From Pigoraptor vietnamica (Eukaryota; Opisthokonta; Filasterea): DNA of 24,904 bases. Of this stretch, positions 2,797-23,700 are shown piece by piece (position 1 is the first letter of the stretch; every line of letters starts with the position of its first letter). The stretch is from assembly GCA_943704525.1 (NCBI GenBank), contig CALSCQ010001792.1:1-24904 (forward strand), written 5' to 3'. The notes under the pieces were generated by a model, which had not been told where the DNA came from, ran no database searches, and saw only the letters and a program-made list of their open reading frames with translations. The translations under genes were made by a program, and so were the position numbers.

Positions 2797-3537
2797 TGGG
2801 CGAAAGCGAGCTGCAGCCTCTTGAGAAGGAGGACTGAACTCAGTCTCACTGCATTCGCACGCCATGCTTTCATCTAAAGATGTCTGGGCGGTCGATCTCC
2901 GGCTGGGCAATGATGCAATAATTTGGAACGAGCACTGTCGCATTCCTCCGCGTTCGCCGCCGTCGAATGCTGCGGCTCGCGCTAGTACCAGCCGTGTACC
3001 CAATTGCACTCAACTGAGCAGTCGAGCGGGACCGGACCGGCGTCCGCCAGTTTCACAGTGGGCCACCGACCGGCTCAAGAAAAGCCAGAGAATGCGGAAG
3101 AGTGAAGCGGTGCGGGCGTCTGGTCCGGGCTAAACAGCCAATCGGTCTAACACCCACCCTTGATTGCACACGGTAGCGTCCCTGTGGCACCGACGTGACG
3201 TCAGCCGTTTGTGGCCATGTCCGTCACCACTCCAAAAGCGCCGTGCGGTATGCGAGGGCGCGCCGATCTTCGCCGAACGATCGTTCTCTTTCGAACGGGA
3301 AATCTCACGACACACTTGCACTCGCTTACGAGAGCACACGCGCACACTCGCGTAGTCTCTGTTGCCTGCAGGACGCCGCTCGACTTCGCGGGGTAATTTT
3401 TGGCACCGTGCGAGCGATTGACAGGGGCAAAACTTATTATTGGCGCAAGGCACGCACGACACACTCGCGCACGCACACACGCACACATACACACACACAC
3501 CACACATTTCGCGCGCCACATAGTGTGCTGCGTTGAA
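2797..3537. other. Intergenic and 5' flank of the MINDY gene
   Basis: I see no gene. A CCAAT-like pentamer occurs near 3137 and a CA microsatellite at 3459-3507, 31 bases before the MINDY start codon. An open frame runs into the MINDY ATG from 3400, but its residues come from the CA repeat and are probably untranslated leader. Confidence 0.5.
3459..3507. repeat. CA microsatellite in the MINDY 5' leader region
   Basis: Imperfect (CA)n with CGCA and ATAC interruptions, directly upstream of the start codon at 3538. Confidence 0.9.
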
Positions 3538-5838
3538 ATGGGCGGGCCCCAGGACGACGGCACTCTGCCGACCGAGCACAACGACAGCGGGAGCGCCCCT
3601 GTCGTCCCGCAAGCAGATGCGCCCGCAACCGAGCCCTCTCCCGCGCCACCTGCAGCGGACGACGACACCGCTTCGAACGTGGAGGTGATTGAACAGGGAA
3701 CGGCGGCGCTGTCCCTCTCCGACGCCGTGCATCCATTGGATGTTGCACAGGTGCCAGGGGCTGTTCCCGGCGCAGTCGCCGCGAGCGCCGTCGAAGCACA
3801 GCAGGCGCCTTCTTCAAGCACTCCGCCGCCGCCTGCGCTCGTCCCGGCGCCCGACGCACGCGGGAGTGAGGCGCAGTCGCCCGACATTTACGCGCTGAAG
3901 CGAATTCCGTGGCGCGGGAAGACGATTGGCATCGTCACGCAGAACATTAACGGCCCCTGCCCGCTCATCTCCATCTGCAACGTGCTTGCGCTGCGTGGGA
4001 GCATCCAGTTCCACGCGGACATGGAGATGGTGTCGTACCAGCACTTGTGCACGCTGCTCGGCGACTGCCTCATGCGGTCGGCGGCGACGCCGACGTCCGC
4101 CGCCGTGCACGTGGGCGAAACAGAAGCCGACCGCGCGCGCAACATTGAGGACTGTTTCAACGCATTCCCGCGGCTGCAGACGGGGCTGGACGTTAACGTG
4201 CGCTTCTCGAGGTGCGCTGTGCGGAAGTGTGCTGCATAGTCATATCGCTATATTGTGCGCAAGTGCTTGCGTTCTGACACGGCGTGCCATTCGCAGCATC
4301 GACGGCTTTGAGTTCACGTCCGAGTGCCTCGTCTTTGACCTTCTCGACATCCGCCTCGTGCACGGCTGGCTGTCGGACCCGCAGGACGCCGACACGCACG
4401 CCGTCATCGCCAAGACAAGCTACAACCAGCTCGTCGAGCGCGTCATCGCCTTTCGTTCGGCGGCGGCGGACAAGAGCGGCGGTCCAGGGCCGAGCGACCG
4501 CGAGATTCAAGAAGGTGCGTGCAGTCGGTCGACGTGCCTGTTTGATGTGTTTCTGTGTCTCAATGTGCGAGTGCGTGTGGTGTGTTCGTGCGTGCGCGTG
4601 CGGTTCATGACTAATCTTGGCGCACACTCGCGTGACAGGCCTTATTGCGGAGACTTTCCTGGAGCAGACAGCGTCGCAGCTCACGTACCACGGCATATCC
4701 GAGCTTGTCGCGTCTTTGCGTCCCGACCAGCCGTGCGTTCTCTTTCGCAACAACCACTTCAGCACGCTGTTGAAGCACCGCGACGAGCTGCTTGTGCTTG
4801 TTACCGACCAGGTGCGTGTGTGTCGCATGCCTGTGACACTCGCGGAATTGCGTGCTGGTGACGGCAGAATGCGATCGCACACTGTGAGTGTCTTTCAAAC
4901 AACGCTGCTGTGTATGCAACTGGCACGGTTGGTTGACCCGCACATATTCGTGCGCAGGGATTCTTGCACTCGTCCGCTGTTTGGGAGACCCTCAACAACG
5001 TCGAGGGCGACGGCATTTTCCTCGACGGGGAGTTCCACAATGTGGGTCGTGCTGTGCCTGGTTGTCCCGTCATTTTGTCATGTATATCCTGCGCACTCTC
5101 ACACTATTCTTCATCCTCTTCTCTTTTCCAGATCCCCGCGCAATCCGGTGAAGACTACCGTGCCGAGGCTGCGCCGGCCACAGTCGCTGAAGCCTCTGCG
5201 CAGAATTCCGAGTGGGTGTCCGTGTCCTTGTGTAGTTGGCACACGCGCGTTTGGCAATATGCATGCTGACGCCCGCCCATTGCGCTTGTGCAGCTATCTT
5301 CTCGCGCTCAGCCTTCAGCGACAAGAAGATGAAGAGGCGCGGCGCATCGAATCGCAGCGACAGGTCCAGTCCCGTCCCACTTCCGGGGTGGGAAGGCCGC
5401 AGGACGCTGTGCCACAGCAGCCGATGGGCAGCGTAGCGTCCGTCCACGCGCCGCAGGGCCAGGAAATGGACCCAGAGTGAGTCTCTTCATCTCAAATCAC
5501 GTCGTCGCGTGCCTGGTGGCTTCGTGTTGGCCGATGGCGTCGTTGTGTACTTGATACGCGATCGACTACGTACGTGCTCCTACCAAATTAGTGCCCCGGA
5601 GTTTGCTGACGGCAGCTCCATTGCTTTCGACAGTTATCTCCTCGCGCTTCAGCTTCAGGAAGAGGACGATCGCCGCGCACGCGCGCACCAACAGCAACAG
5701 CAGGCGCAGCAGGGCGGAGGGCAGCGCACGCCTTCGACGGGCTCACGACCACAATCGGCGCCTCGCCAGGCGAACACGCAGAACGCACAACAGGCGCCCA
5801 GGGACGACGGCAAGAGCAGCGGCTGCTTGCTCTCATGA
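3538..5838 (+). CDS. MINDY-family deubiquitinase (DUF544), tandem MIU and CaaX box
   Basis: This encodes a cysteine protease of the MINDY-1/2 (FAM63) family, which trims K48-linked polyubiquitin. Seven exons: 3538-4211, 4297-4514, 4639-4811, 4958-5041, 5132-5211, 5294-5476 and 5634-5838. All have GT-AG junctions and the phases close exactly to 538 residues. The first about 110 residues are Ala/Pro-rich and probably disordered. The catalytic core begins near IPWRGK. It shows QNINGPCPL, with the oxyanion Gln and nucleophile Cys at the family positions, then CLVFDLLDIRLVHGWL, and LFRNNHFSTL with the catalytic His. Exons 6 and 7 each open with a MIU helix, DYLLALSLQ and DYLLALQLQ, the polyubiquitin-binding motifs. 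The protein ends Cys-Leu-Leu-Ser, a CaaX box with Ser last, which predicts farnesylation and membrane attachment. The start is the first in-frame Met after the CA-repeat leader. Confidence 0.96.
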
Positions 5839-6135: not shown

Positions 6136-9100
6136 TCAGAGCAGGGCGTCGGACGACTTGCGGCGAACGCCCTGTCGCTTCTTCATCCGCTCCACAAGCA
6201 TCATGCGGGCCTCTTCCAGCCTGCGAATCTCGCTCTCAATGCGCTCGTCCTCCTCGAGCCACGCCCCGAGCTCGCGTGACGACACGGAGCCGGCGATCGC
6301 GAGGTACTCGAGGTACTTGCGCAGCTCATCCGCACACTGCCAGTGGTGCGCCACAGCCGAGAGCATCTCGCGGGTCATGCGGTGCGTCCCAAACACGCGC
6401 TCGTGCCACAGCGCCGCGTCCCTGTGGAGCTTCCGGCGCAGCTGGTGCAGCACCATGTCGTACGCCGTCTCGCGAATGGCGGCCTCGACGAACATGTACG
6501 AGTCATGATACTCCCCGGACGCGTTCAGCACCCCGCTCGAGGAAAACGGGTCCACGCTGCCGCTGTTCGACCGCAGCGACGCTGCAGAGTGCGACTCGTT
6601 TGCCGCGCCTATCGGCGACGCGCGAGCGTCGTGCGCTCCCACGGGCGCCGCCAGCAGCGAACTAGAGCTCGCGCTTGACCTGAGAGCGGGTCGCCCTGCC
6701 CCGTCAGCGGGCACAAGGAAGCCCATGGCGACGAGGTTGTCGAGGTCGTCGAGCACCTGGATGCCGCCGCGCTCAAACGCCGACGTAAGGTGCACGAGGA
6801 GGTCCACGCCAAACGAGTCGCCAATAACGCTCGCAATCTTGAGCGTCACCTGCTGCGAGGGCGTGAGGCGATCGATGCGCGACGCAAAGTGCGGGCGGAT
6901 GAGGTTGAGTTCGCTGAGCAGCTGCACCGCGGGCACCCCGCGCTGGGACGGGTGCGCCGACCCCGCGGCGTCGCCCTCGTGTGCCGTGAGGGAGCGCACA
7001 GATGCGTCGAGCGGCGTCGACGACCCCGATTCCACGGGCGCTAACAGCGGTGACATGGTCGGGTCCTGCGGTACGGGCGGGCGCGTCTCGTCCTCCTCGC
7101 GCGGCGCATCCCTCGTGATCGGCCGAACGTCGTCAAAGTGCTTGAGGAACGTCAGCGTCAGCAGCTGCGCGACAAGCGGGATGCCGCTTGACCGCTCCAC
7201 GATGCGGGCGACGCCAAGCTCCGCCGCGCTCGCTTCCTCGGGAGGAACGCCCTCGTACACGGTCGTCGACGACAGAACCTCGAGGGCCGCGGACGCGCTG
7301 TTCGATGCCTGACGCCCGTACGCACCGCCACGCTTGCCGTCGCCCCTTCGACTGTGGTTGTTGTGGCGGGAGAATGGGCTGCGCTTGGACTGGAGGTGGG
7401 CGGCGATGCGCTCGCGGATGGGAATCGTCATGTCCTCGCGCGAAAGGCGCGGCAGCACGACCGTCTCCATCCACTGCGACTTCGGCAGCCGCTCGAACAG
7501 GGCCATCGGCGTCGACGACGCACGCACGGCACACACGAGCAGCGCGTGGACGTTGGCCGCCGCGAGCTGCTCGAGCACAGAAAACGACGACTCGTCGAAG
7601 CAGTCGGCGTCGTCGATGAAAACGATCGCGCCCTTGGGCATGCTCCGGAGGCGCCGCTGCAGCAGCTTGGTCAGAATTTTCACCGACGTCGCCAGACGCG
7701 CAGGCGCCGACATGGACGCGGCGACACCAGAGCGCAGGGCCGCTTCCTCATCCTCCCAGTCCAACGCGGACGAGGACGCATCACCGCCGTTCGTCGCCTG
7801 CGCGGGGTTCTGGGCGTCGGCAGGCGCTTCGCCCGGAGCGACGTAGTCGTTCGCGCGGCCGTGACTAAAGAGGTCAGAGACGAGCGGAACGAGGGCGGCG
7901 AGGCGAGCGTCTTTACCGGAGAGGAGATCGGCGCGCGCCGCCTCCACCGCATCGCGTCCACGCTTGCGCGTCAGGGACTCGTACAAGCCCGCCCACATCT
8001 CGAGAGGGCGCGCATTCCCGACGCGCGAGAACGCAAAGTGGACGACGGCAGTTCCGGTCGCGCGTATGCGCTCGTCGACCGAGAGCTGCTCGTACGCGTC
8101 CGCGAGGAGACGCGTCTTTCCAATTCCGTGGTTGCCGCCCTCGCCCGTCACGAAGATCGCGTTGAACATCGGCGTCATTGTATGCGCGAACAGATCCGCT
8201 GCCTCCGAAATGTCGGCCATGAACGTGTCTCGCCCGACCATCGGCGACTGCGCCTGCCTCGCGCGCTCCACGGCCGCCGCGTCGTCGCCACGCGCCTCCT
8301 CTTCCTGCGAGCTCGCACGTCGGCGGCGGGAAGGACGGAGGATGCTCGCGAGGGCCGCGTGCATGTACGGCACGAACCCGTCCTTCTTCTCGCGCGCCGT
8401 GCGAACGTATGATGCCGTCAGGGTGAGCTCCTTGCCCTTTAGCTTAAGCTCGCGCTTCGGGTCAAACACAACATTGTCCATGATGGCGGCCTCCGACGTC
8501 GCCTCGTCGCACAGCACGCGTCCCCACTCCGACAGCACCATGAGCCGCGCGGCGCAGTTGACAATGTCAGAGTGGTGCGTGTACTCTTTCCGATCCTGAG
8601 AGCCCACGGACCCGCAGAAGGCAGGCCCCGTCGCAACGCCCGCACGCGCACGGAACCCCTTCTTCTCCAGCTGCGAGACGACGCGCGTGCACGTGAGCAC
8701 CGCGCGCGTGACGTCGTCGTGATGCGTCTTCTGCGGCAGGCCGAACGCAAGGTGTGCGACGAGCCCCTTGTCGTCCACCAGGAACTTGGAGATCGACCCC
8801 TCGAACGCGTCCACTGACGACCGAATGACGTCAAAGGCGTCGGACAGCTTGCGCGCCGTCTCCATGACGGGTTCCTCACCCTCCAAGTACGAAGCCTCGA
8901 TGTCGTCAAGGTCGATCGCGTTGAAAGCAAACGACGGCCGTCGCGGCGCGTAGAACGGAACGCCCAGCGACATGCGGCGCTGTGAGTTTGCCGGCACCGA
9001 CGCGGGACCGGCAGTGCTGCTGAGGGTGGCAAAGTCCGACGCCCCGAGGCGGCGCGCGTTGAATCCCTTCTCAAAGTCAATCCCGCCGATGTTCATGAAG

Positions 9101-12100
9101 ACGACCGTGATCGTGCGGAGGTCCGTCAGCCACTCCGTCTTGTTCTCGTGCGTGTAGTTGTACACCTGCATCGGCACGTACGCCTTGAGAGCCGCCTCCA
9201 TCGCAGGTGAGAGGCGCGGGGCCGGCAGCGGGTGTGGGTCCAGGTCGGCGCCTACAAGGCGCAAGACGACGTATGCGACAGGCTGCGGTTGCGTGCGCTG
9301 CGGCGACGATCCGTCGGCGGGGGTCGCGGCGGGGGCGGAAGGAAACACGGGCTCGAGCTCGCATGCGCCCTCTGGAAGCAGCGCCTTGGCCTCCGGTGAG
9401 ATGAGCACTTGGTTGGGGCGCGCGACCTTCTCCGAACGCGCCATTTGGCCGATGGCCGGTCCGACGAAGACCTGCTGCCAGCAACCGCCCGAGCCAATGT
9501 GCACGATGGTGGTCTGCCCGGTGCCGATCCCCACCTGCGCACGTGTTTGATACGTTATGCGATCGTTTTAGCTGTTGCGCGTGTGCGAGCGAGGGCAGCG
9601 ACGCGAGACATTACCTTGAGACGGCACGAGAATCCCCGCAGCATGATGATACGCCGCACGGCGCGCACCAGCGTGATGCTACACTGGATGGCCTGGAGCG
9701 TCGTTGCCACGAGGTTGCGCTTGGAGGTGCACGGGAACACTGCACACATGCCGAAGGTGAGTGTGTGTGCACACTCGGATTCCTTGGCGTAACGTCCGTC
9801 CATGGCACCACGAACAGGGGCGCCGAACAGAAATGGCTCCCGTCATGCTCAGCTTACCGGCCGCAATGGCATCGCCCGCGAACTTGGTGACGTCGCCGCC
9901 GTTCGCCGATATGATCGGAATGAGCCTGCCCGGCGATGGAACCAATAAATCAATACAGTCAAGAGAATAAACATTCGAAATAGCACCCCAGGCGACCAAA
10001 TCGGGCACACGCCCACGCGCGTTACCAGCGCACTCACGAATTGAACACGCCGTCCAGGAACATGGCAATCTTCTCCGCGCCGTCCGTGAGGTCGCGCACC
10101 ATTCCCTCCGTGTACGTCGTGAAGTCGCTGATGTCCGCAAACAACACGGCGCCCTCTATGTGCTCGCAAGCAGGAGACCGTAGGGGAAGGTTGGGGTTCC
10201 GCGAGTACCGCTCCGCCACCGACCGCGGGACGAACGTGGACAGCGAGGCGACGACGCCGTGTCGAAGGACGCTCTCGCCGTGCTTACGGTCCGAGACGTC
10301 CTGCCCAACCATCATGACGCCGACAAGCTCCCCCTCGCCGCTCATCCGGGGCGAGACGTTGACGAGGAGGTCGACCTCCGCGCCCCTGTTGGAGCGGAAG
10401 GAAATCTCAATGCCGCTGGGCGCATTGCCGTCCGAAACGGACTCGACAAGTTCCACCATGAACTTGGAGGGATTGGGGCACGAGTCGCTGGGGATGAGGA
10501 ACGAGGCCAGTGGCGAGCCCACGGCCTGGTCCCGGCGGACGCCCGTGAGCCAACGCATGCGCTCGTTCCACTCGACGACCATGCCAACCATGTCCATTCC
10601 GAAGATGGGCACGCTCGCGCCGTCGATCATGCGGCGAAGGTCGCCGGCGGTGCGACGGAGTTCGAGCGCGCGCTTGGCGTGCGTGACGTTCTCCATCGTG
10701 AGAATGATCACCCGCTTCACGTCGGCCGCACCGGCGTCGCTCTCGTCACTGTCGCGCGGGGACGTCACCTCGATCGCGGACGACGGCCGTGCCCCAAAGG
10801 GCAACGAACCGTCCATTGTGGCTTGCGAGGCCCCCCCCGTGCGCACCTGCGACCCGGCGACGATAAGGTCGAAAGACTGCACCGAGTTGGCCACGCTCGT
10901 CTGGCCGCCGATTGCAGCGAACATGGCGGACGCAAGCGACATTGTCAGGTCGTCCGTGCCCATCGAACTGCCCGTCGCGAGCAAGTTCTGGTTGCTCGTA
11001 GTGACGCGAATCTCCACGTCCTTGAAGGACTCGCCCGTGCGCCGAATGTTCTCCACTGCCGACTTGAGGCGGGGGTTGCTGCCAAACTGCCCCCCCGCGA
11101 GCTCGTACAACCCGCGTCCGCGCACGTCCTCGTCCGCCATGCGCAGAATCTTCAAGAACGCGCGGTTCGCAGACACGCAACGAAGGTCGGCGTCGAGCAC
11201 GATCATCGGGTCGCGTGTCGAGCGGAGGATCGACTCGCTAAAGTTGCGCGCGGCCACCATGTCATCTCGCGCCGCACGCATGGAGCGGAACAGTGCCGCA
11301 TTCTTCAGCGACACGGCAACCTGCTTGGCGAGAAGCTCCAGAATCCACAGCCGGTCGGCGGTGAACGCGTGCGCCGTCTGCCGGTTCTCGACGTAAAGCG
11401 CCCCCTGAAACTCACCGCCGCGCTGGAGGGGCACGCACATCGCGCATGCAACGCCCGCACGCGCCACGTGCGGGTCCTCTCCAATCACCATGGGCCGCCG
11501 CGTGTCCTCGATGAGCAGCGAGTCGCGCGTTCCAGCCACATAGCCGATGATGGCGGCAGACACGTGTGGGTTGCGCTCCACGGGCTCGTCGTCGCACACG
11601 CAGCGACCCTCCGCAAAACGCGCAGCAACGTAGAGATTCGACGTCAGCCGCGGGGACGACAGCGGACCCAGAGACGACTTGCGTCCGACATCGACCACCA
11701 GCGGCCTCGCGTTGGCGCCCATCGAACCCGCGCGGCGACGCGAGCGGGGAATCGACGGCATGTCGCGCGGGCTGGGCATCGAGGCAAGCGACCCACGAGG
11801 GAGGGCCTCCTGCTCGGGCACCATGGGCACACGTACCGGCGAATACATTGGCTGTCGAGCATCCGGTGCCTCGCTGAACGAACGCACGCGCCCTTGTCCT
11901 GACGGAGCGTCCGCGTCGCGAAGCTGCTGGTTACGTGCGGTAGCGGGCGACGTAGTCGCAAACGTTTGCATCGGCGCGACAGTGTCCGCGGGGCTCGTTC
12001 GGCGCGACGTTTGCGGCGAGCGCGCGCGAGGTGTGCTTGGTGTGGTCGGACTGGCAGAGTCTTCTACGTCCTCGATGACAGTCATCCCCTCGTCTCTCGC

Positions 12101-15100
12101 GCGGCTGGAAGGGCGCGACGGCAGCGATGTCATGCGACGCAAAACGGGCTCCTCTTCGCCCGCGTCCGCTGTCGACACCGCACCGGCAGACTGGGAAAGG
12201 GCGCGGCCCTCGTCCCCTTCGTCGATGCCCCCAGAGCTGCGGCGGCGTGACGGCGACGAGGGCGCACGTCGCTCGTCTTGCGTTGCGTCGCCTTTCGAAG
12301 CGCGGTTCCCAGATAGCGCCAGAGACAGGCGTCCGTCCTCTCCCTCGTCGATGTTACCCCTGTTCCGGCTCCCCGGACGGGACGGCAGAGAAGCCGGGCG
12401 ACGCTCGTCCTGCGCTACGTCGCCCTTCGAGGCGCGGTTCGATAGAGCGAGCGACTGCCGACCGTCGTCCCCTTCATCGATGTTGCCCCTGGTACGGCTC
12501 ACCGGGCGCGACCCCCCACGTGAGTGCGACGCATCCAGTCGGCGAAGGTGCGCTTCATCCGTAGGCGTTTCGCGGACGAGCACGAGGGCGGCGTGGTCGG
12601 CGCCGCAATTCTGCGCAATAATCTCGAGCAAGACGGTTTGGAGCTTATCAAACTCCATCTCCTCGGACAGCGCACGCGCAGCGCGGAAGAGGGCCACGAG
12701 ATCGATCGAGCCGCCCGGCGCCGGCGTCGCTCCCGCCGAGCGTGAGAGCGAGGGAGAGCGCGCAGAGTCCGCCGGGCGGGGGACACCCAGTCCAGCACCT
12801 GGCGAAGGCGACACAGCTGTCGGCGCCTTTCCCTTGCGAAGGTCGGGATAGCGGCGGTAGAGCTCGTCGACCTTCTTCGTCGCGCCCCAAGCCGCATACG
12901 CCGACACAGCCTCGAGGAGCACGGGAGTTGCGAGGTCCGCAGTTTTTCCAGCGGTGAGCAGGTCGGCGGCACCCTCGTACGCGAGTGCGGCCACGTGCCA
13001 GAACGACTCCTCGCGTGCCAGACGAGCCGCCTGGCCATAGGCTGCCAGGGCGTCCCCGTAGCGGCCTTCGATGCGCTTGATCTCCGCGCGCACAAACATG
13101 CACTTCGAGAAGAAGTTTCGGCGGGACGCCTGCGAATAGTCTTCGAGGCGCGACACGTGCGACTTCAGCCGCTCAAGCATATCCGTAGCCTCCGACGCGG
13201 CCTGGGGAGGCAGCTGCAGTCGGCGGTCGACCGATGGCGTGCGAGAGAGCGACTGCTTCGTGCTCGCGGCGTGGCCGGTAATGTTAGCGTCGATGTCACC
13301 GCCGGTGGAAGGGTCTGCAGAAGCGGCAAAGTTGATGGAGTGCGCGGGATTGCTTGGGTCGCGGTGCCGGTCGACGACGGCCCGGCACGCACGCGCAAGC
13401 GCGACGGCGCCGATGAAGTCAAACTCGCTGTGAGTGATCATCCCGTGGACTTGCTCGATCGTGTTCTCCTCGACCAGGCGCGAGTACAGGGCGTACGCGC
13501 GTTCGTTCCGTCCGAACACAAGCGCCGTAAGCATGCGGAAAATTCCGGTCGCAGCGTTCGCAAATGGCGTAAAGTCTCCATACGCCTCGCCCTCGCCGTC
13601 GTCGTCCTCCCCGGAGAGAATGGCCGACGGCATGTGCTCGCACTCGACGCGCGTGCCCGTAAGGCTGTGCACGGCGGCCATAACGGCCGCCATTGACCGC
13701 TGCATGTCCCGCTGCCCACTCATGCCCACGATGGGCGCGTTCTGCGTGAGCTCCGCGGCAAGGACCCCGAGCGGCGAACCCCGAAGGAACGACGTCCAAG
13801 CGAGAAAAACGCAGCTGAAGACGCGGTAGTTCTGGTCCGCTGCCTCGCTTGCTTGCGCGAGCGCCTTGCGAAGGGCAACAATGGCACTGTCGAACGTATC
13901 TCCCCACGGCGAGGCGAGACCGACGTGCAAATAGCAGCGGCCGAGATGGAGGGCCTCCCCGTACGTTTCGGCCAAGCGCGCTGCAACGTGCACGACCTGA
14001 TATCCCAACCGGTGCCGCTCGAGAATGCTCGCCAGCGCAAAACCGTACACGGCGATGCCTCCGCTGCTCGCTACGGAGTGACCACGGGCAAACGACAGCG
14101 CGGTGAGGCGCGCGGCGAAAAAGACGTAGGCGTTGATGTCGCCCAGGAGGAACGCAACGGGAATGAGCTCCATCAGCGCCGTGTCGAGTGCCTGCACGCG
14201 CCACAGCTCCTGCTGCGGAACAAGGCCCCTGTCCGCGCACGACTCCGCGACCAACTCGACCAAGTCCCTCTCCACAATGACGTCATCGATCGACTCGACC
14301 TCCGCGGCGACGGCCTCCTCGTCCACCACAAGGGGTATTCGGCACCCAAGCAGCTCGAGGCAATCGAGCCCGACCGACATGGCGTCCACGTACCGCGCAA
14401 GTGCCGTGAGGACACCGACCTGCAGTAGCATGACGGGTATGACCGACGCTGCGACGCCATTCGCGAGAACGCGCGCTTCCTCGAGCCCCCTCGACGCCGC
14501 GAGGTAGTGGCCGAGGAAATACTGGCACGCTGCCTGGTTCATCGCAATCGTGTACGCGTGCCGGTCACGCGACGCCTCCGTGCAGAGAGGCAAGAGGAGC
14601 TTGGCGCGGCTGAGGTACTTGAGCGCCTCCTCGTGAGCGGCCGCGTTGACGGCGAGTGTACCGGCGGCCGTCAGCTGCGCCGCGGACAAGTCGGGCAGCT
14701 TGTCCGCACGGGACCCGCTACGCAACAGGTGCCCCGCAATGGCGAACACGCGCTCGTTCTCGTCCGCGCCCACGGACCCGGGCGCACTGTTACTACCTGA
14801 GCTCGCCGCCCCCGTCGATCGCCTTCGAAGATCAGCGGCGTCCGATCGCCTGAGAGGACCTCCCGCGCTACCACTGCCTCCGTCGGACGGGCGGCGTTCA
14901 GGGCGCGTGGCCGACACGGGCATCGTACGGGACCGCGATGGGAGTTCGGTCGGTTCCGGCGTGGCGGAGGCGGCGAGGAGCGTCTTGGCAAGATCGAAGT
15001 GGACGGAGGTCTTCTCGTCCTCCGAGAGCAACTGATAAAACGCCTGCTGCACACGATCGTGCACAAATGCGAACACGCGCGAGAGCTCAAAGGTCTCCTC

Positions 15101-17990
15101 GTTACTCGGCTCTGCGCTCTCGAGCGACACCGTCTGCGACCGGCTCAACCCGGCAAAGCTCCGCGTTACTCGCAGTTTTCGCTCCTCCGGCACGCTGAAA
15201 GGGCCGAACAGAGGCTCGTTTTTATCGCCGTCCGAAGACCCGCCGCTTGTTGTCTGGTGAAGTTCGCGCCCGCTCCTCTGCTTGCGAATGGTTATCCCAC
15301 TGGTCGTCCGGGAGGCTGAGCGGTCGTCACGTGACACCACGCGCTGCACGAGGCCCTCGGCGAGCGCGTCCTGCAGGCGGGCAAGTGCATCGTCTTCGCT
15401 CACGCGCGCGAGCGCAGCGACGCCTCCGAGCGTAAACCGACATCCGATGACGGCCGCAAACTTCAGCAGTGTGCGCGTTTCTTCCTTCAGACCGAGCGCG
15501 CGCGAACTACGCTCAACGATGAAGTCGACCACGTTGGCCGTGTGTTCGCACGCCTTGATTTCCGCTAGCTTCCACGCCCACCGGTGTCGCTGAGCGTCAA
15601 AGAACAGCAGGCCGTCGTCCTGCAGCGCAGACAGAAAATGCGAAATGAAGAACGGATTGCCGCCCGTCTTAGTGTGGACGACCAGCGCCAGGTCGCTGAC
15701 CACACGCGGAGGCAGGTTCGTCGAGCGCGCAAGAAGTCCACAAACGTCGTCCACCACGAGGGCTCCGAGCGACAATCGGAGAAGGCGATTGCCCGCAGAC
15801 ATCGAGGCCGACGAGACAAGCTGGTGCAGAGCGTGTGCCGGCGTGATCTCGTTAGAGCGGTACGTCGCCACGAGAGCAAAGGGGCATTCCGTCTGCATGA
15901 CGGCGTGCTGCAATAGGCGCAGCGACGACGCATCCGCCCACTGGAGGTCATCGAGCACGAGCAACGCGGGGAAGTTACACGACGCTACCGCACGAAGCAA
16001 CGCGCAGAACGCATTCTGCAGTCGCAGCATGAGGTTGCTGATATTCGCGGCCGACGGCGCAGCCGCCAACGACGTCGGCGAATCTCCAGAAGCAGGCGGC
16101 GGATGGACCATGATCGACGGAGGGTCCAATGTTGGCGCCGAGAGGGAGGACCCACCCGAAGTGGCACTCGACGTACGCTCGGCCAGCGGATGGTGGTTTG
16201 GTGCCGCCCCGTCGGTCGATATGCCACTGCTAGTCCGTCGCACCAGGCGACCAAAGAGGGCCGACATCGGCGGGTGCAGCTGACAGAGAGCGGCCGCGTT
16301 GCGTCCCACGGCGTTGCGTAGCGTGACGAGCAGCGCAGTTCCGCCCGACCGCGTCGTCTTCGCAATCAGCTGACCCGTCATCTGCGCCAGAATGTCCACA
16401 ATCGCGCTGAAGGGACGCCCGGCGCCGTATTGGTCGTACTTTCCCTCGGCGTATGTGCAGCGCGCGACAAGGCTGGCGACAGACGCGCGAACGAGCGACG
16501 ACTTGCCGACACCCGACGGGCCGTCGACTAATACCACGCGGGGTACCTGGGACGAGAAGGCGTCCGAGACGGCATCACCAATCTTCTTCTGCTCCGCCGA
16601 GCGACCGAACAGCTCCGAGGGCATGGGAAGGCGATAGGGAACGTCCTTCTGCGCAATGGCGGTCGAAAGGAGCGCGTTGTAGCCGCTCGCCTTGAACTGC
16701 TCGAGGTCCGCGCGGACCCCTCGAGCGCTTTGGTACCTACGCAGGCACAGCAGGGTTACATGAAGGCACGACACTCGCCTATGTATGCCAATGGAGCACA
16801 TTGAAGTTCTCCGTTGTGGCACAACGCGTTGCAGCTTATCACACGCAGGCTGAGCTGCATGGGTTAGGGTCACGCACCTCTCGTCTGGATCCTTCCGAAG
16901 GAGCTTTTGCACAATGCGGTCGATGAACTCCGGAACGCCCAGAGGCTTGAGTGCGTCGGGAGGGCGCGCGATGTGTGCGTGGATGATGGCGTACGCGTCA
17001 CCGAGGAAGGGCGGCCTAATGTCGAATGTGGATCGGAGTGAGCATGAAAAATATCACAATAACGCGCAGACAGTGATGCACCACACGCACAACCACACGT
17101 TCGGCATTACATACACGCACACGTAACCAGCAGAACGCGCACACAGAGAGTCCTGCGCACCTTCCCGCGAGCATCTCGTAGAACACTGCCCCCATCGAAT
17201 ACAGGTCGGCGCGGTAGTCCGGCTCCCGCTTCACGCGGCGCGTCCGCTCGGGCGCCACATAGTCAATGCTCTTCGGGTGCGCAAGCACGTCGTCAAAATC
17301 GCCCGGAAATTCGCTCTCGGCGTTCGGATCCCGCGGGCTGTTGAACACCGACCCGCGCCCGGGTGAGACCGGTCGATTCACGGACGGGGAGTTCGTCGAG
17401 GGCGAGCTGGCCATCAGCAATCGCCCGCCCGCGCGCATGTACTCCGCGTGCTGGAAGTTCGCCAAAAGGACGCGTCTCTCCTCTCCACCGTGCAATACGA
17501 ACACGTTGTGCGAGGAGATGTCGTAGTGGCAAAGCTTGGCGTCGTGCGTCGCCTGGATCGCGTCGCATATCTGGATGGCGGCCGAGACGAACGCGCGGAT
17601 GGACAGCTTGCCCTTCTGCTGCACAAACTCGCGCAACGGCTCGTAAGGAATCGCGTCGAACACGATGCCCAGCATGCTTGGCTCGATGGGCAAGAGCTCT
17701 CGAGCGCGCACGACATTGTCGGACTTGATGCGCTGCAGAAATTCAAATTCGGAGCGGAGCACGGGAAACATCGCCGGGTCGTCTGTGAGCTTCATGCGGC
17801 AACGTGCGCCGTCGGAGACGCGCGTGGCCACAACGACCACCGCAAAGCCGTCCACATGCTTCTCTTCCACGACGAATCCACTCGCGTCGAGGGTCGCCGC
17901 GGCCGTCGTAAGGGGATCCTCCCCAGCCCACTCGTCGCCATTCGCGACGTCATTTGTCTCGGCGAGGCCGAGGGAAGCGAGGGCTGCCAT
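6136..17990 (-). CDS. Giant hybrid: degenerate kinase-NTPase-GAF-PAS-PAS-soluble adenylyl cyclase (C1-C2-NTPase)
   Basis: Predicted cytosolic signalling protein of about 3752 residues making cAMP from ATP. Exons, in transcription order: 17990-17161, 17015-16878, 16736-10038, 9925-9858, 9739-9615 and 9534-6136; all introns are GT-AG (80-145 bases) and the phases close. Kinase-like domain about 40-335: HYD 155-157, Asn162, APE 246-248, DLYSMG, but ANF (177-179) where DFG belongs and no glycine loop. First NTPase: Walker A GPSGVGKSS from 395, Walker B LLVLDDLQWAD near 585. Helical repeats about 975-1570. GAF about 1665-2145, split by a disordered insert. PAS about 2155-2230 and 2355-2475. Cyclase C1 from about 2515 (Asp2524, KFAGD with Asp2574). 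Cyclase C2 2759-2997 (Lys2870, Asn2946, Arg2950). Second NTPase: GNHGIGKT 3087-3094, IVFIDDAD near 3260. Coiled-coil tail. C1-C2-NTPase matches ADCY10-type soluble cyclase. No transmembrane segment is seen. Confidence 0.95.
12200..12530 (-). repeat. In-frame 132-base coding repeat inside the giant cyclase gene
   Basis: About two and a half copies of a 132-base (44-codon) unit. The copies are in register: the stretch beginning at 12267 matches the one beginning at 12399. Each encodes GNIDEGDDGR or close variants, followed by RASKGD and QDERR, and is Ser/Arg/Asp-rich. It sits in the disordered insert that splits the GAF domain and probably arose by unequal recombination. Confidence 0.85.
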
Positions 17991-19149: not shown

Positions 19150-20467
19150 CGCACGTTGCGGAAGCACAAAACTCCGAGCGGCGTAAGCGCAGGAAGAGGA
19201 CAGGGAAGAGGAGCACGTCGGAACGCAGGAAGAGGGAAGAGGAGCACGTCTGGATCGATTCCGCAGGAAGAACGTCGCGGTAAGCGCAGGAAGAGCGCAC
19301 GTCGCGGTAAGCACAGGAAGAGCGCACGTCGCGGCCAGCGCAGGGAGAGCGCACGAGGCGGTAAGCACAGGAAGAGAAGCATGCCACCGTAAGCGCAGGA
19401 AGAGGCACAGGAAAAGCACGTCTGGAGAACGTCGCGGTAAGCGCAGGAAGAGCGCACGTCGCGGAAAGCGCAGGAAGAGCGCACGTCGCTGTAAGCGCAT
19501 GAAGAGCGCACGTCGCTGTGTAAGCAAGGAAGAGCGCAAGTCGCGGAAAGCGCAGGAAGAGCGCACGTCGCGGAAAGCGCAGGAAGAGCGCACGTCGCGG
19601 AAAGCGCATGAAGAGCGCACGTCGCAGGAAGAGCGCACGTCGCTGTGTAAGCAAGGAAGAGCGCACGTCGCTGTGTAAGCAAGGAAGAGCGCACGTCGCG
19701 GAAAGCGCAGGAAGAGCGCACGTCGCGGAAAGCGCAGGAAGAGCGCACGTCGCTGTGAAAGCGCAGGAAGAGCGCACGTCGCTGTGTAAGCAAGGAAGAG
19801 CGCACGTCGCGGAAAGCGCAGGAAGAGCGCACGTCGCGGAAAGCGCATGAAGAGCGCACGTCGCTGTGTAAGCAAGGAAGAGCGCACGTCGCGGAAAGCG
19901 CAGGAAGAGCGCACGTCGCTGTGTAAGCAAGGAAGAGCGCGCGTCGCGGAAAGCACAGGAAGAGCGCACGTCGCGGTAAGCGCAGGAAGAGCGCACGTCG
20001 CGGTAAGCGCAGGAAGAGCGCACGTCGCGGTCAGCGCACGAAGAGCGCACGAGGCGGTAAGCGCAGGAAGAGCGCACGTCGCGGTCAGTGCACGAAGAGC
20101 TCAAGTCGCGGTAAGCGCAAGAAGAGCGCACGAGGCGGTAAGCGCAGGAAGAGGCACAGGAAGAGCGCATCGCCGGAACCGCAGGGAGAACGTCGCGGTA
20201 AGCGCAGGAAGAGCGCACATCGCGGAAAGAGGAAGAGCGGACGCGGCGGTAAGAAAAGGAAGAGCGCACGTCGCGGAAAGCGCAGGAAGAGCGCACGTCG
20301 CGATAAGTGCAGGAAGAGGCACAGGAAGAGCGCATCGCCGGAACCGCAGAAAGAACGTCGCGGTAAGCGCAGGACAAGCGCACGTCGCGGTCAGCGCATG
20401 AAGAGCGCACGTCGCCGAAAGCACAGGAACAGCGCATGTCGCGGTAAGCGCAGGAAGAGCGCACGTA
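19150..20467. repeat. Minisatellite with a 27-base unit
   Basis: About 1.3 kb of tandem copies of a 27-base unit whose core is GCGCAGGAAGAGCGCACGTC. The variable 7-base part is GCGGAAA or GCGGTAA in most units; a 28-base variant carries GCTGTGTAAGCAAGG. A longer block containing CATCGCCGGAACCGCA occurs twice (near 20168 and 20329), showing higher-order duplication. Because 27 is a multiple of three, both strands stay open over long distances (on the minus strand a nine-residue repeat, DVRSSCAFR). I regard those frames as by-products: they have no start context, no domain and no family. Confidence 0.92.
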
Positions 20468-20744: not shown

Positions 20745-23700
20745 TCAAAGATACGGTTCAACGTCCGGCAAGATGCCCTCAATGGCCTCGCAGTGCTCGA
20801 ACACTTCCAGCTCACCCAGTCGCGCACCGAAAGCGAGCTTGCTCACAGGTTTTTCGGGCACACAGGAGCGCGGTATAATCCAGACGAGGTGCCACTCTAG
20901 TTGCACTCCTAATGCCGCACTCCAGCGACGATGTTCGCCGGTAAGAAAGAAATTGATCGTATGGCTATGGTCCGACGGCGACTGGAGAGTAACTTGTATA
21001 GCAAAAGCCCGCTTGACCGCGCCCAACTGAGAAACCTGGCGCTCACCACTCTGTCCCGACTCGTGAAGGCGAGTGGTCGCAACGATACAGACACTCTTCA
21101 CAGGCCAGGGTGGAGTTGGCGAGAATGGAGCGCCAGTAGGAGAGTCGGCAAAAAAAACCGCATCGATAAATTGCAGCGCCCGGGTGTTCGGCACAAAGAG
21201 GACATTAGGAAGACGCTTTTGAGCATCGGAAAACGCAACGTCGGCAAAACGCTCGACTGCAGGATGATCGGACGTCACCAGCCCAGCGCGAGAGCCCATC
21301 CCGCCCAAGTTTCTGTAACACCGACTCTTCGACCATGAGGCCCTTCGACGACCGGTCGGCAAGACCCATTATCTTCCACCAATCAGGTTGCAATGCGTAC
21401 GAACGTCGATTGGCAGCATACGTCAGCAAGGCGTCCATGAACGCCGATTTCGCAACGCCCGAGACGCACCGCATCTGGCCCTGCGCGTCGATGAAGAAGT
21501 GGCGATGATCGACATGTTCTTTCGTGGCGCCCGCTTGGTGAAGCGCGCTGACGTCGAGACCACCGAGAGCAACTTTCGTGGCACTCACGCGACTCTCGCG
21601 CTCAGGACCGCTGACGGTCGAAAAAAACTTGATCGCCTGAAAAGACACATCATCCCAGAACTTTTTGAGCTCGCCGCGAATGGCCCTAAGCTGCATTGAG
21701 TCGACCGCCTCCACTTCGACAATCGACGGTTCATCGGCGCCGCTCATCGTCGAGCCCGACGAGGCCGCACCACTATCAATCTCGACCGAATCCTCGTGGA
21801 CGACCGATGGCTCATTTGAATCCCTCATCACAGTGTCCGACGAGTCGCCAACGCTATCGTCTTCCGCCTCGCCGCTCGACTCGACCGAATCCATCGGAGA
21901 GTCCGACGAGTCGCCAACGCTATCGTCGTCCGGCTCGTCGACCGAATCCATCGAAGAGTCCGACGACTCGCCAACGCTATTGTTGTCCGGTTCGCCACTT
22001 CCTCCATCATTGGCGTTGGCGCGTACAACCTCGAGGGCCTCCTGAATTTTTGCACAATACAACGGTAGCCGGCCAGTCTCCTCCTTAATGTCGTCGACGA
22101 CAGGGCCCAGCTCTTCCCATCCCCCGCAGTGCGCCAGCCAGGCTCCAAACTCGGCATACAGAGAAGCGGACGTTAGCACCGAAAGACACTATTGAGGAGT
22201 AGCAAACCACATCATAACACACCTCCGAAAACCCGCCAAACAAAGGAAAATCTCTTTGGCCTACTCGACGATCCTCGCAGTCAACCCCGCGCACAAAGTC
22301 GTTGTTCGCAGAATAACCGAATATCTTATAGGCAACCTGGACGTCGAAGATTCTCTTTTCCGTCTGCGTCCGGGCCTTCCCCTGTCCGTGCGCTTTCCGC
22401 TCCGAGCCCTCCGAGGTGGGATTCATCTGATCAACGATTAGTATAACATCTGTTCCCCATCGTTGGAGTACCTCGACCACCTCGTCGACGTTCTTAGAGA
22501 CCTCGAGACATCGTAGGACGTCCCGTACGTCAAAAAACGCAACTGCAACCGCTTGCGCGAGGACAGTCGGTTGGGAAAACATGTTCGACGCTGGCACGTA
22601 TACGACGCGCTTGCCCTCACGCAGGAGAAACACGGCCAATGCGGCGAGAAGATGCGACTTGCCGCACCCTTTCGTTCCATAAACGTTCAGACACTCGCGG
22701 CGGGCCAGTTCAGAGACTTGCTGGACCAGCGGGGCAAAGCTCTCGCGGCCCATATAACGGAAGCGGCCAGCGGTCACTGCAGGCCGAAACCGACGCGTCA
22801 TCCGAGCCTGTGGCTGGATGGCTGGAAATGGCAGTTCGCACCATTCCATTGGGTCCGACAGCGTCTTGCACGTCGCGCTGGCCGTGCACGATATCGCTTG
22901 CCGAAGTGACGAAGCTTCGCCAAATCGACCTGGGCAACGTTAGTACAACAATCTCAGTCATCACCGAAGTAAGATTGAGCACGACGCATACCATTGGCCA
23001 CACAAAAACGCAACACCACAGAGATCGTACTATTAGAAGAAGCAAGCCAACCGAGAGAGATAGCGTGTCACGTGTAATGTTCACGCCAGACGATACCTCC
23101 ATCACGCGTCCACGCCGGTTCACCACGAGAATCGCCTACAAGACGCAAGGGCATGATTACAAGTACGAAACAGCCAATCCGCCTCGTGATGCGCCCGAGG
23201 AAGGCAGCTTTCGAAGGGCCGCGGCAAAACAGTGTTTAGAAACACGGGCACGGTCACATCACGTGACGAGCACAACACTCGATTTAAGCATGGCATACAT
23301 CTATGACAGGTTGCGCGCGACTGCTGACCAGGGTGGGCAGGAACTGGGTCGACGGAGGCATCGCTCCTCCCGAAAATACTCTGCAGATCTAAACGAGGGC
23401 AATAAACGCGTAATGAGTATACACGACGTAGAGGGGTCAATCGAAAACATTTCGTATACTCACCCCAGTTTACGACCCGCCGAAATAGAGTGCCTCCGGC
23501 ACTGCGTGCCTCTGCAGTGACGTGCACAGAATATTGCAAAGTTAACATGCACGCATGGATGCCGTGCAATTAGCAAATGCAGGCGAGTGCATTGCGGAAC
23601 GTCGGCAGTCATGCGACAAAGAAAGGCGCAACTACCCCTCGCCGGCAATCGCGTAGAGACACACCGATACTGGCACACTGTAGTAACACACGCAAACATA

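Follow-up and report, generated by a model that had tools for sequence, protein, structure and literature searches.

We report that a gene of the filasterean Pigoraptor vietnamica quite probably encodes a single signalling enzyme, probably cytosolic, in which a Chk1/HstK-type scaffold leads through a pair of PAS domains into a C1-C2 cyclase with the layout of soluble adenylyl cyclase (sAC), with its own NTPase and cAMP as the output. The evidence is sequence from one genome, which has four colinear copies of the arrangement; the catalytic residues are kept in the copy described here, and the bicarbonate switch is lost in all four.

Gene structure and domain order

The gene lies on contig CALSCQ010001792.1, and the stretch analyzed (24,904 nucleotides) is referred to below as the window. 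Its structure was read from the sequence. It runs on the minus strand from 17990 to 6136 in six exons, all in phase, and the coding sequence of 11259 nt contains its sole stop at the end and encodes 3752 amino acids. All five introns are GT-AG. Each was recovered in a model-free manner, those at 17016-17160 and 16737-16877 by protein-to-DNA alignment with the bacterial protein P0072 as query, and those at 9926-10037, 9740-9857 and 9535-9614 by each of three paralogue queries. A first-pass annotation of this DNA had placed six exons closing in phase at 6136-17990, and these coordinates proved exact. The aligner also placed three candidate extra introns, at 17271-17369 within exon 1 (P0072 query), at 8814-9008 within exon 6 (three of three paralogue queries) and at 9283-9348 within exon 6 (two of three); each has a length that is a multiple of three and falls in insert or linker sequence that aligned poorly. 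The open frame has its first ATG at 17990 and extends just five codons further upstream, so that an additional upstream exon may exist. GC content by codon position was 0.67, 0.50 and 0.80. The features of the gene are as follows.

17161..17990, minus strand: exon 1, N-terminus and kinase-like domain, residues 1-276 (Pfam, gene model, alignment, eye)
16878..17015, minus strand: exon 2, remainder of the kinase-like C-lobe (gene model, alignment)
10038..16736, minus strand: exon 3, kinase end, NTPase 1, helical region, GAF, PAS1, PAS2 and C1 start (Pfam, gene model)
15899..16615, minus strand: NTPase 1 (AAA_16), with GPSGVGKSS and LLVLDDLQWAD as Walker A and B by eye (Pfam, eye)
12725..15097, minus strand: helical region, residues about 870-1660 (from position; boundaries approximate)
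11285..12706, minus strand: GAF (second half Pfam, first half by eye; boundaries approximate)
11000..11224, minus strand: PAS1, a PAS_4 match (Pfam)
10295..10642, minus strand: PAS2, best stretch of PAS fold (Pfam)
10038..10252, minus strand: first part of C1 with the metal Asp (VLFADISDF), sharing an exon with PAS2 (alignment; upstream boundary approximate)
9858..9925, minus strand: exon 4, C1 with KFAGDA, the Lys95 and Asp99 equivalents (gene model, alignments)
9615..9739, minus strand: exon 5, C1 (gene model, paralogue alignment)
6136..9534, minus strand: exon 6, C1 end, C2, NTPase 2, C-terminal tail and stop (Pfam, gene model)
8395..9162, minus strand: C2, with the Lys334, Thr405, Asn412 and Arg416 equivalents (alignments; boundaries approximate)
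7555..8214, minus strand: NTPase 2 (AAA_16), with GEGGNHGIGKTRL as Walker A by eye (Pfam, eye)
6139..6492, minus strand: C-terminal tail, in part matching paralogues C1125 and C1198 (alignment)

The protein thus reads kinase-like, NTPase, helical, GAF, PAS, PAS, C1, C2 and NTPase, an order already given in the first-pass annotation and borne out by Pfam, by alignments and by three colinear paralogues. Pfam matched Pkinase in exon 1 (E 3.7e-16), AAA_16 (2.4e-21), GAF (2.3e-9) and PAS in two stretches (1.2e-25) in exon 3, and Guanylate_cyc (3.1e-10, C2 only, at 8428-8739) and AAA_16 (1.4e-8) in exon 6. The C1 domain, split by three introns, gave no Pfam match and was detected through alignment to the paralogues and to human sAC. 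The helical region of this copy matched no Pfam family, and the three window frames that were scanned gave no HisKA, HATPase_c or REC match. Some 300 low-complexity residues (about 11636-12571) interrupt the GAF domain, and the paralogues match GAF unbroken.

When aligned with P0072 and the paralogues, the kinase-like domain retained HYD...N, carried NFQ in place of DFS and lacked the TGRMNR segment that P0072 and the paralogues have; Lys67 was assigned by eye, outside the aligned part. The Lys, HKD and DFS are common to P0072 and all three paralogues. By these residues the window copy is probably a pseudokinase, and the kinases of the paralogues may be active.

The flanking DNA was also inspected. 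Open frames at 3400-4239 and 4614-5480 on the plus strand match the two parts of a MINDY deubiquitinase and probably belong to one gene that lies past the 3' end of the cyclase gene on the other strand. Beyond the 5' end, a 27-base unit is repeated in tandem at 19272-20466 (about 44 copies), an acidic open frame holds two copies of a 57-base unit at 21881-21994 (91% matches), and a P-loop ATPase-like frame at 22088-22939 on the minus strand matches the ATPase_2, NACHT and STAND families weakly.

Paralogues in the same genome

Searches of the genome (32.5 Mb, 1395 contigs) with exons 6 and 3 identified three paralogues, on contigs C1125, C1198 and C556, the last at a contig end. Their identity to the window protein was about 29-53% across the matched pieces. 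All three are colinear with it from the kinase C-lobe to C2, and two of them through the C-terminal tail as well. Nine paralogue frames gave the Pfam order Pkinase, AAA_16, GAF, PAS, Guanylate_cyc and a weak second AAA_16, with E values of 1e-32 to 3e-37 for the first AAA_16. The kinase C-lobe, AAA_16, helical part and GAF of the paralogues share a single open frame, 1517 to 1579 codons long, and their PAS2 is split by an intron farther upstream; in all four fused genes PAS2 ends and C1 begins within a single exon. The helical part of C1125 gave TPR matches, all under the curated cut-offs.

A genome search with the C556 scaffold returned the four fused genes and then lesser matches on C1163, C1278 and C1106, those on C1278 and C1106 being weak. 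The piece at C1163:1605-1715 shares 70% identity with a 39-residue part of the C556 scaffold and may be a remnant or else a fifth copy. The genome also carries plain C1-C2-NTPase cyclases on C1278, C706 and C1176. Exon-level matches genome-wide numbered 96 for the class III cyclase family and 19 for HisKA. A search of this genome for EF-1alpha found its first part at the end of a contig, along with an apparent HBS1-like protein.

We compared the paralogues by simple pairwise counts of dN/dS, a comparison that covers C1125, C1198 and C556. Between C1198 and C556 the ratio was about 0.04 for the PAS2-C1 exon (0.025/0.679), about 0.06 for the C2 exon (0.039/0.619) and 0.32 for the whole scaffold frame. 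Within the scaffold of this pair it was 0.07 for the kinase C-lobe, 0.17 for AAA_16, 0.34 for the rest of the NTPase, 0.33 for the helical part, 0.24 for GAF and 0.29 for the PAS1 part. The corresponding values between C1198 and C1125 were 0.06, 0.18, 0.31, 0.44, 0.28 and 0.55, with dS from 0.85 to 1.65 across the parts. Between paralogues, the kinase C-lobe, PAS2-C1 and C2 are tightly constrained and the remaining sensor parts drift.

Catalytic residues of the cyclase

Alignment to human sAC, with residue roles taken from the available portions of PMC12867704 and PMC12250328, indicated that the window C1-C2 retains the equivalents of Asp47, Asp99, Lys144, Lys334, Thr405, Asn412 and Arg416. 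Since these seven catalytic and substrate residues are kept together with Lys95, synthesis of cAMP by the window protein is likely. Asp47 and Asp99 were present in all 14 non-human aligned rows, and Lys334 and Thr405 varied in several of the other non-human rows too. The paralogue on C556 has Ala at Thr405, a base-reading residue in sAC, with the other compared catalytic residues kept; its substrate may differ, and therefore not every copy need make cAMP.

That last copy lends something to the idea that the cyclase part is no adenylyl cyclase in vivo, being inactive, specific for GTP or regulatory only, as does the fact that Pfam scores C2 and not C1 in the window. We consider this unlikely, given that all seven aligned residues are retained in the window copy and that dN/dS is very low for the PAS2-C1 and C2 exons of two paralogues.

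Relatives in databases and known systems

Database candidates were chosen by words and within length limits, coverage of intron-rich eukaryotes is uncertain, and the paralogues of this genome likewise failed to appear among the matches. With residues 236-780 as the query, 321 matches at E up to 1e-8 were found among 2214 proteins scored. Bacterial proteins of the order kinase, AAA_16, GAF, often PAS, and histidine kinase (for example P0003, P0005 and P0011), which we take to be of the HstK kind, share the scaffold domains at up to 411 bits to these residues among the matches listed. Among these matches the output is a histidine kinase in most and a sigma-54 AAA or GGDEF domain in some. Three of the 120 listed of the 321 matches carry PF00211, namely P0006, P0008 and P0072; among these matches P0006 and P0008 carry the cyclase where a histidine kinase would otherwise stand, and P0072 has both. 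P0006 and P0008, bacterial by our reading, have two kinase stretches, the same scaffold and one C-terminal class III cyclase domain, with no match to PAS or a second NTPase.

The output half was searched for separately. A query of residues 2480-3340 (candidates of 0.55-1.75 times the full query length) gave two matches among 2031 scored, P0001 and P0002, neither with a kinase, GAF or PAS match. P0001, a plain relative, has 3599 aa, a length to set beside the first-pass remark that the fused protein would be among the longest cytosolic cyclases. A C1-C2-NTPase profile of 1274 positions gave 61 matches among 8000 scored, and the precomputed domains of these matches included no Pkinase, GAF or PAS. 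Bacterial proteins named 'class 3 adenylate cyclase/TPR' (P0123, P0135 of Archangium, and locus L060 of an Anaerolineae at 6986-11149, read by eye) have the C1-C2-NTPase order in 1364, 1365 and 1387 aa, with kinase, GAF and PAS absent from their listed domains. Bacterial and archaeal genomes, scanned with the C1-C2-NTPase alignment through two short peptide patterns, yielded a single locus, L060, which starts at C1. The scaffold and C1-C2-NTPase occurred together in none of the matches listed (120 of the 321 for the scaffold), nor did we find this architecture in the titles and abstract openings listed by searches of an open-access library.

Several described proteins combine some of these parts. 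Candida albicans CHK1 (2471 aa) has a Ser/Thr kinase, AAA_16 and GAF in the same order but ends in a histidine kinase, ATPase and REC without a cyclase, as the available portion of PMC9069115 describes it; our comparison is with that description. The 'group X' assignment of a C. albicans histidine kinase appears in the part of PMC4965123 available, and the CHK1 kinase domain is at times joined to an ATPase and also occurs together with diguanylate and guanylate cyclase (PMC9069115 in its available part, citing Pandit et al. 2009). The cyclase-kinase families of Physarum and Acanthamoeba are amplified eukaryotic joins of kinase and cyclase, but they are transmembrane and have the cyclase between two kinases, and an AAA-GAF scaffold goes unmentioned in the available text of PMC4758236. 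Myxococcus xanthus PKN2 joins a bacterial Ser/Thr kinase to a cyclase domain but is transmembrane, with an NTPase-GAF scaffold unmentioned in the portion of PMC1262709 at hand. TIGR03903 (TOMM system kinase/cyclase fusion protein, 1267 positions), a bacterial kinase/cyclase fusion by name, matched exon 6 weakly at 29.5 bits and the C556 scaffold at 83 bits, both far short of its curated cut-off of 705.75 bits, and did not match window exon 3.

Each half is already known or in databases, and so is the idea of fusing such a scaffold to a cyclase. What appears to be new is the scaffold combined, in a eukaryote and in four copies, with C1-C2-NTPase as its output, an architecture absent from the matches listed and from the open-access titles and abstract openings listed. 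The first-pass annotation had proposed that a Chk1-type scaffold exchanged its histidine-kinase output for a cyclase and that the exact architecture was not known to have been described. The exchange agrees with the absence of any overlap in this genome between the 17 contigs with HisKA and the 16 with AAA_16 (AAA_16 scored for 17 of 132 candidates), and the domain-architecture search upholds the second claim among the matches listed. The full novelty that it gave to the output swap is lost to the bacterial kinase-AAA-GAF-cyclase proteins P0006 and P0008.

Origin of the fused genes

The bacterial relatives of both halves raise the question of acquisition from a bacterium of the entire architecture as one gene, which was then duplicated. 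The C556 scaffold scores 881 bits against P0072 and 1265 bits against P0003, summed over stretches, which speaks for this origin. Against it, the scaffold and C1-C2 are joined in none of the matches listed, and P0006 and P0008, with one cyclase domain, stand apart from the three paralogues in a quick tree, so that we hold a wholesale transfer to be improbable. That tree comprised 40 rows, 36 of them from the 119 usable bacterial rows and including P0006, P0008 and P0072; by its placement of P0006 and P0008 we rejected these scaffold-cyclases as the origin. The branch of the window row reached 4.08 changes per column, and the row was separated from the three paralogues by starred branches. Because of this extreme branch the scaffold tree says little about the window copy and shows no single common scaffold; the common origin of the four scaffolds rests on order, linkage and the C1-C2 tree.

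The C1-C2 tree had 54 rows, for which 45 of the 61 profile-search matches were offered and one was dropped for coverage. The four fused genes formed one clade (support 100/99). Human ADCY10 grouped with C1278 and C706 of the same genome (98/94), the fused genes falling elsewhere, and C1176 was placed with P0163, P0001 and P0142; the rows for C1278 and C706 are rough spliced models, that of C706 partial. Holding the fused and ADCY10-type rows together cost 12.5 log units, and the joint clade was not rejected by the AU test (p 0.243). Since the tree separates the two, the AU p is 0.243 and the branch of human sAC is long, ADCY10 orthology can be neither asserted nor excluded. The fused output has the ADCY10 layout, with ADCY10 descent neither shown nor rejected.

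Comparison with ADCY10 and the bicarbonate site

Human sAC was the best solved relative in a profile search (E about 5e-51, versus about 1e-13 for the next kind), and likewise with exon 6 alone (2.4e-13 versus 1.9e-4). Human ADCY10 (PDB 4CLF, 4OYA) and the window protein have the C1-C2 catalytic residues in common. To our knowledge, ADCY10 carries no such scaffold. A C-terminal P-loop/STAND part is found in ADCY10 (PMC12802110, available portion) as in the window protein. The Arg176 bicarbonate switch of human ADCY10, which has a separate place in the tree, is Ala in the window protein and in all four fused genes, and Arg176 occurred in none of the 14 non-human rows. Bicarbonate control is therefore not expected. 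According to the accessible part of PMC12867704, non-mammalian sACs lack one or both of Lys95 and Arg176 with few exceptions, and the sACs of sea urchin and salmon, each lacking one bicarbonate residue, are responsive to pH but to neither bicarbonate nor calcium. Control of the fused cyclases by pH is possible.

The protein might still be a bicarbonate- and calcium-responsive cyclase of the ADCY10 kind, its scaffold giving placement or stability only. The C1-C2-NTPase layout, the retained Lys95 and the closeness to human sAC would suit such an enzyme; with the substitution at Arg176 and the pH-responsive sACs of sea urchin and salmon (PMC12867704, available part) on the other side, we think it quite unlikely. 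Of the first-pass description as a complete ADCY10-like cyclase, the complete catalytic pair, the layout and the best solved relative stand; orthology by descent is neither shown nor rejected, and the bicarbonate response is not supported. Lastly, the locus might be two adjacent genes mistaken for one, the scaffold of Chk1 type and the cyclase of sAC type, a thought prompted by a gene model read from sequence and by the length of exon 3 (6699 bases); we rejected this as hardly credible on the same order in three paralogues of about 29-53% identity and the shared PAS2-C1 exon in four of four genes.

Proposed mechanism and significance

For the single fused enzyme that we favor, we infer the cAMP product, the cytosolic place, the direction of the signal and the use of the NTPases as conformational switches. 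The scaffold (kinase-like domain, STAND-type NTPase, helical array and GAF) would sense one or more intracellular signals, with inputs acting on GAF, on the helical/NTPase part and perhaps on the kinase-like domain, whose degenerate window version would be a binding or regulatory part. The change would then be transmitted via the PAS pair to C1-C2, PAS2, tied to C1 through a short conserved linker, probably being the transmission element. The NTPase at the C-terminus may determine the oligomeric state or the basal rate, as STAND proteins do. It cannot safely be assumed that NTPase 2 is a nucleotide switch, because in the available portion of PMC12802110 the nucleotides tested had no effect that distinguished its four sAC proteins. 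The four copies would seemingly be sensors of different inputs with a constant output.

More broadly, and with somewhat less assurance than for the enzyme itself, we lean towards a eukaryotic family in which a Chk1-type scaffold was uncoupled from the phosphorelay and fused to C1-C2-NTPase, giving cAMP synthesis gated by PAS, GAF and NTPase parts without a bicarbonate switch, and in which the copies diversify the sensors while the output stays fixed. Should bicarbonate not control the fused cyclases, the sensors on their own chain would offer a direct handle on what does. The kinase-NTPase-GAF scaffold would, if this is true, be a portable eukaryotic input module independent of the phosphorelay, and the family a possible source of chemically switchable cyclases.
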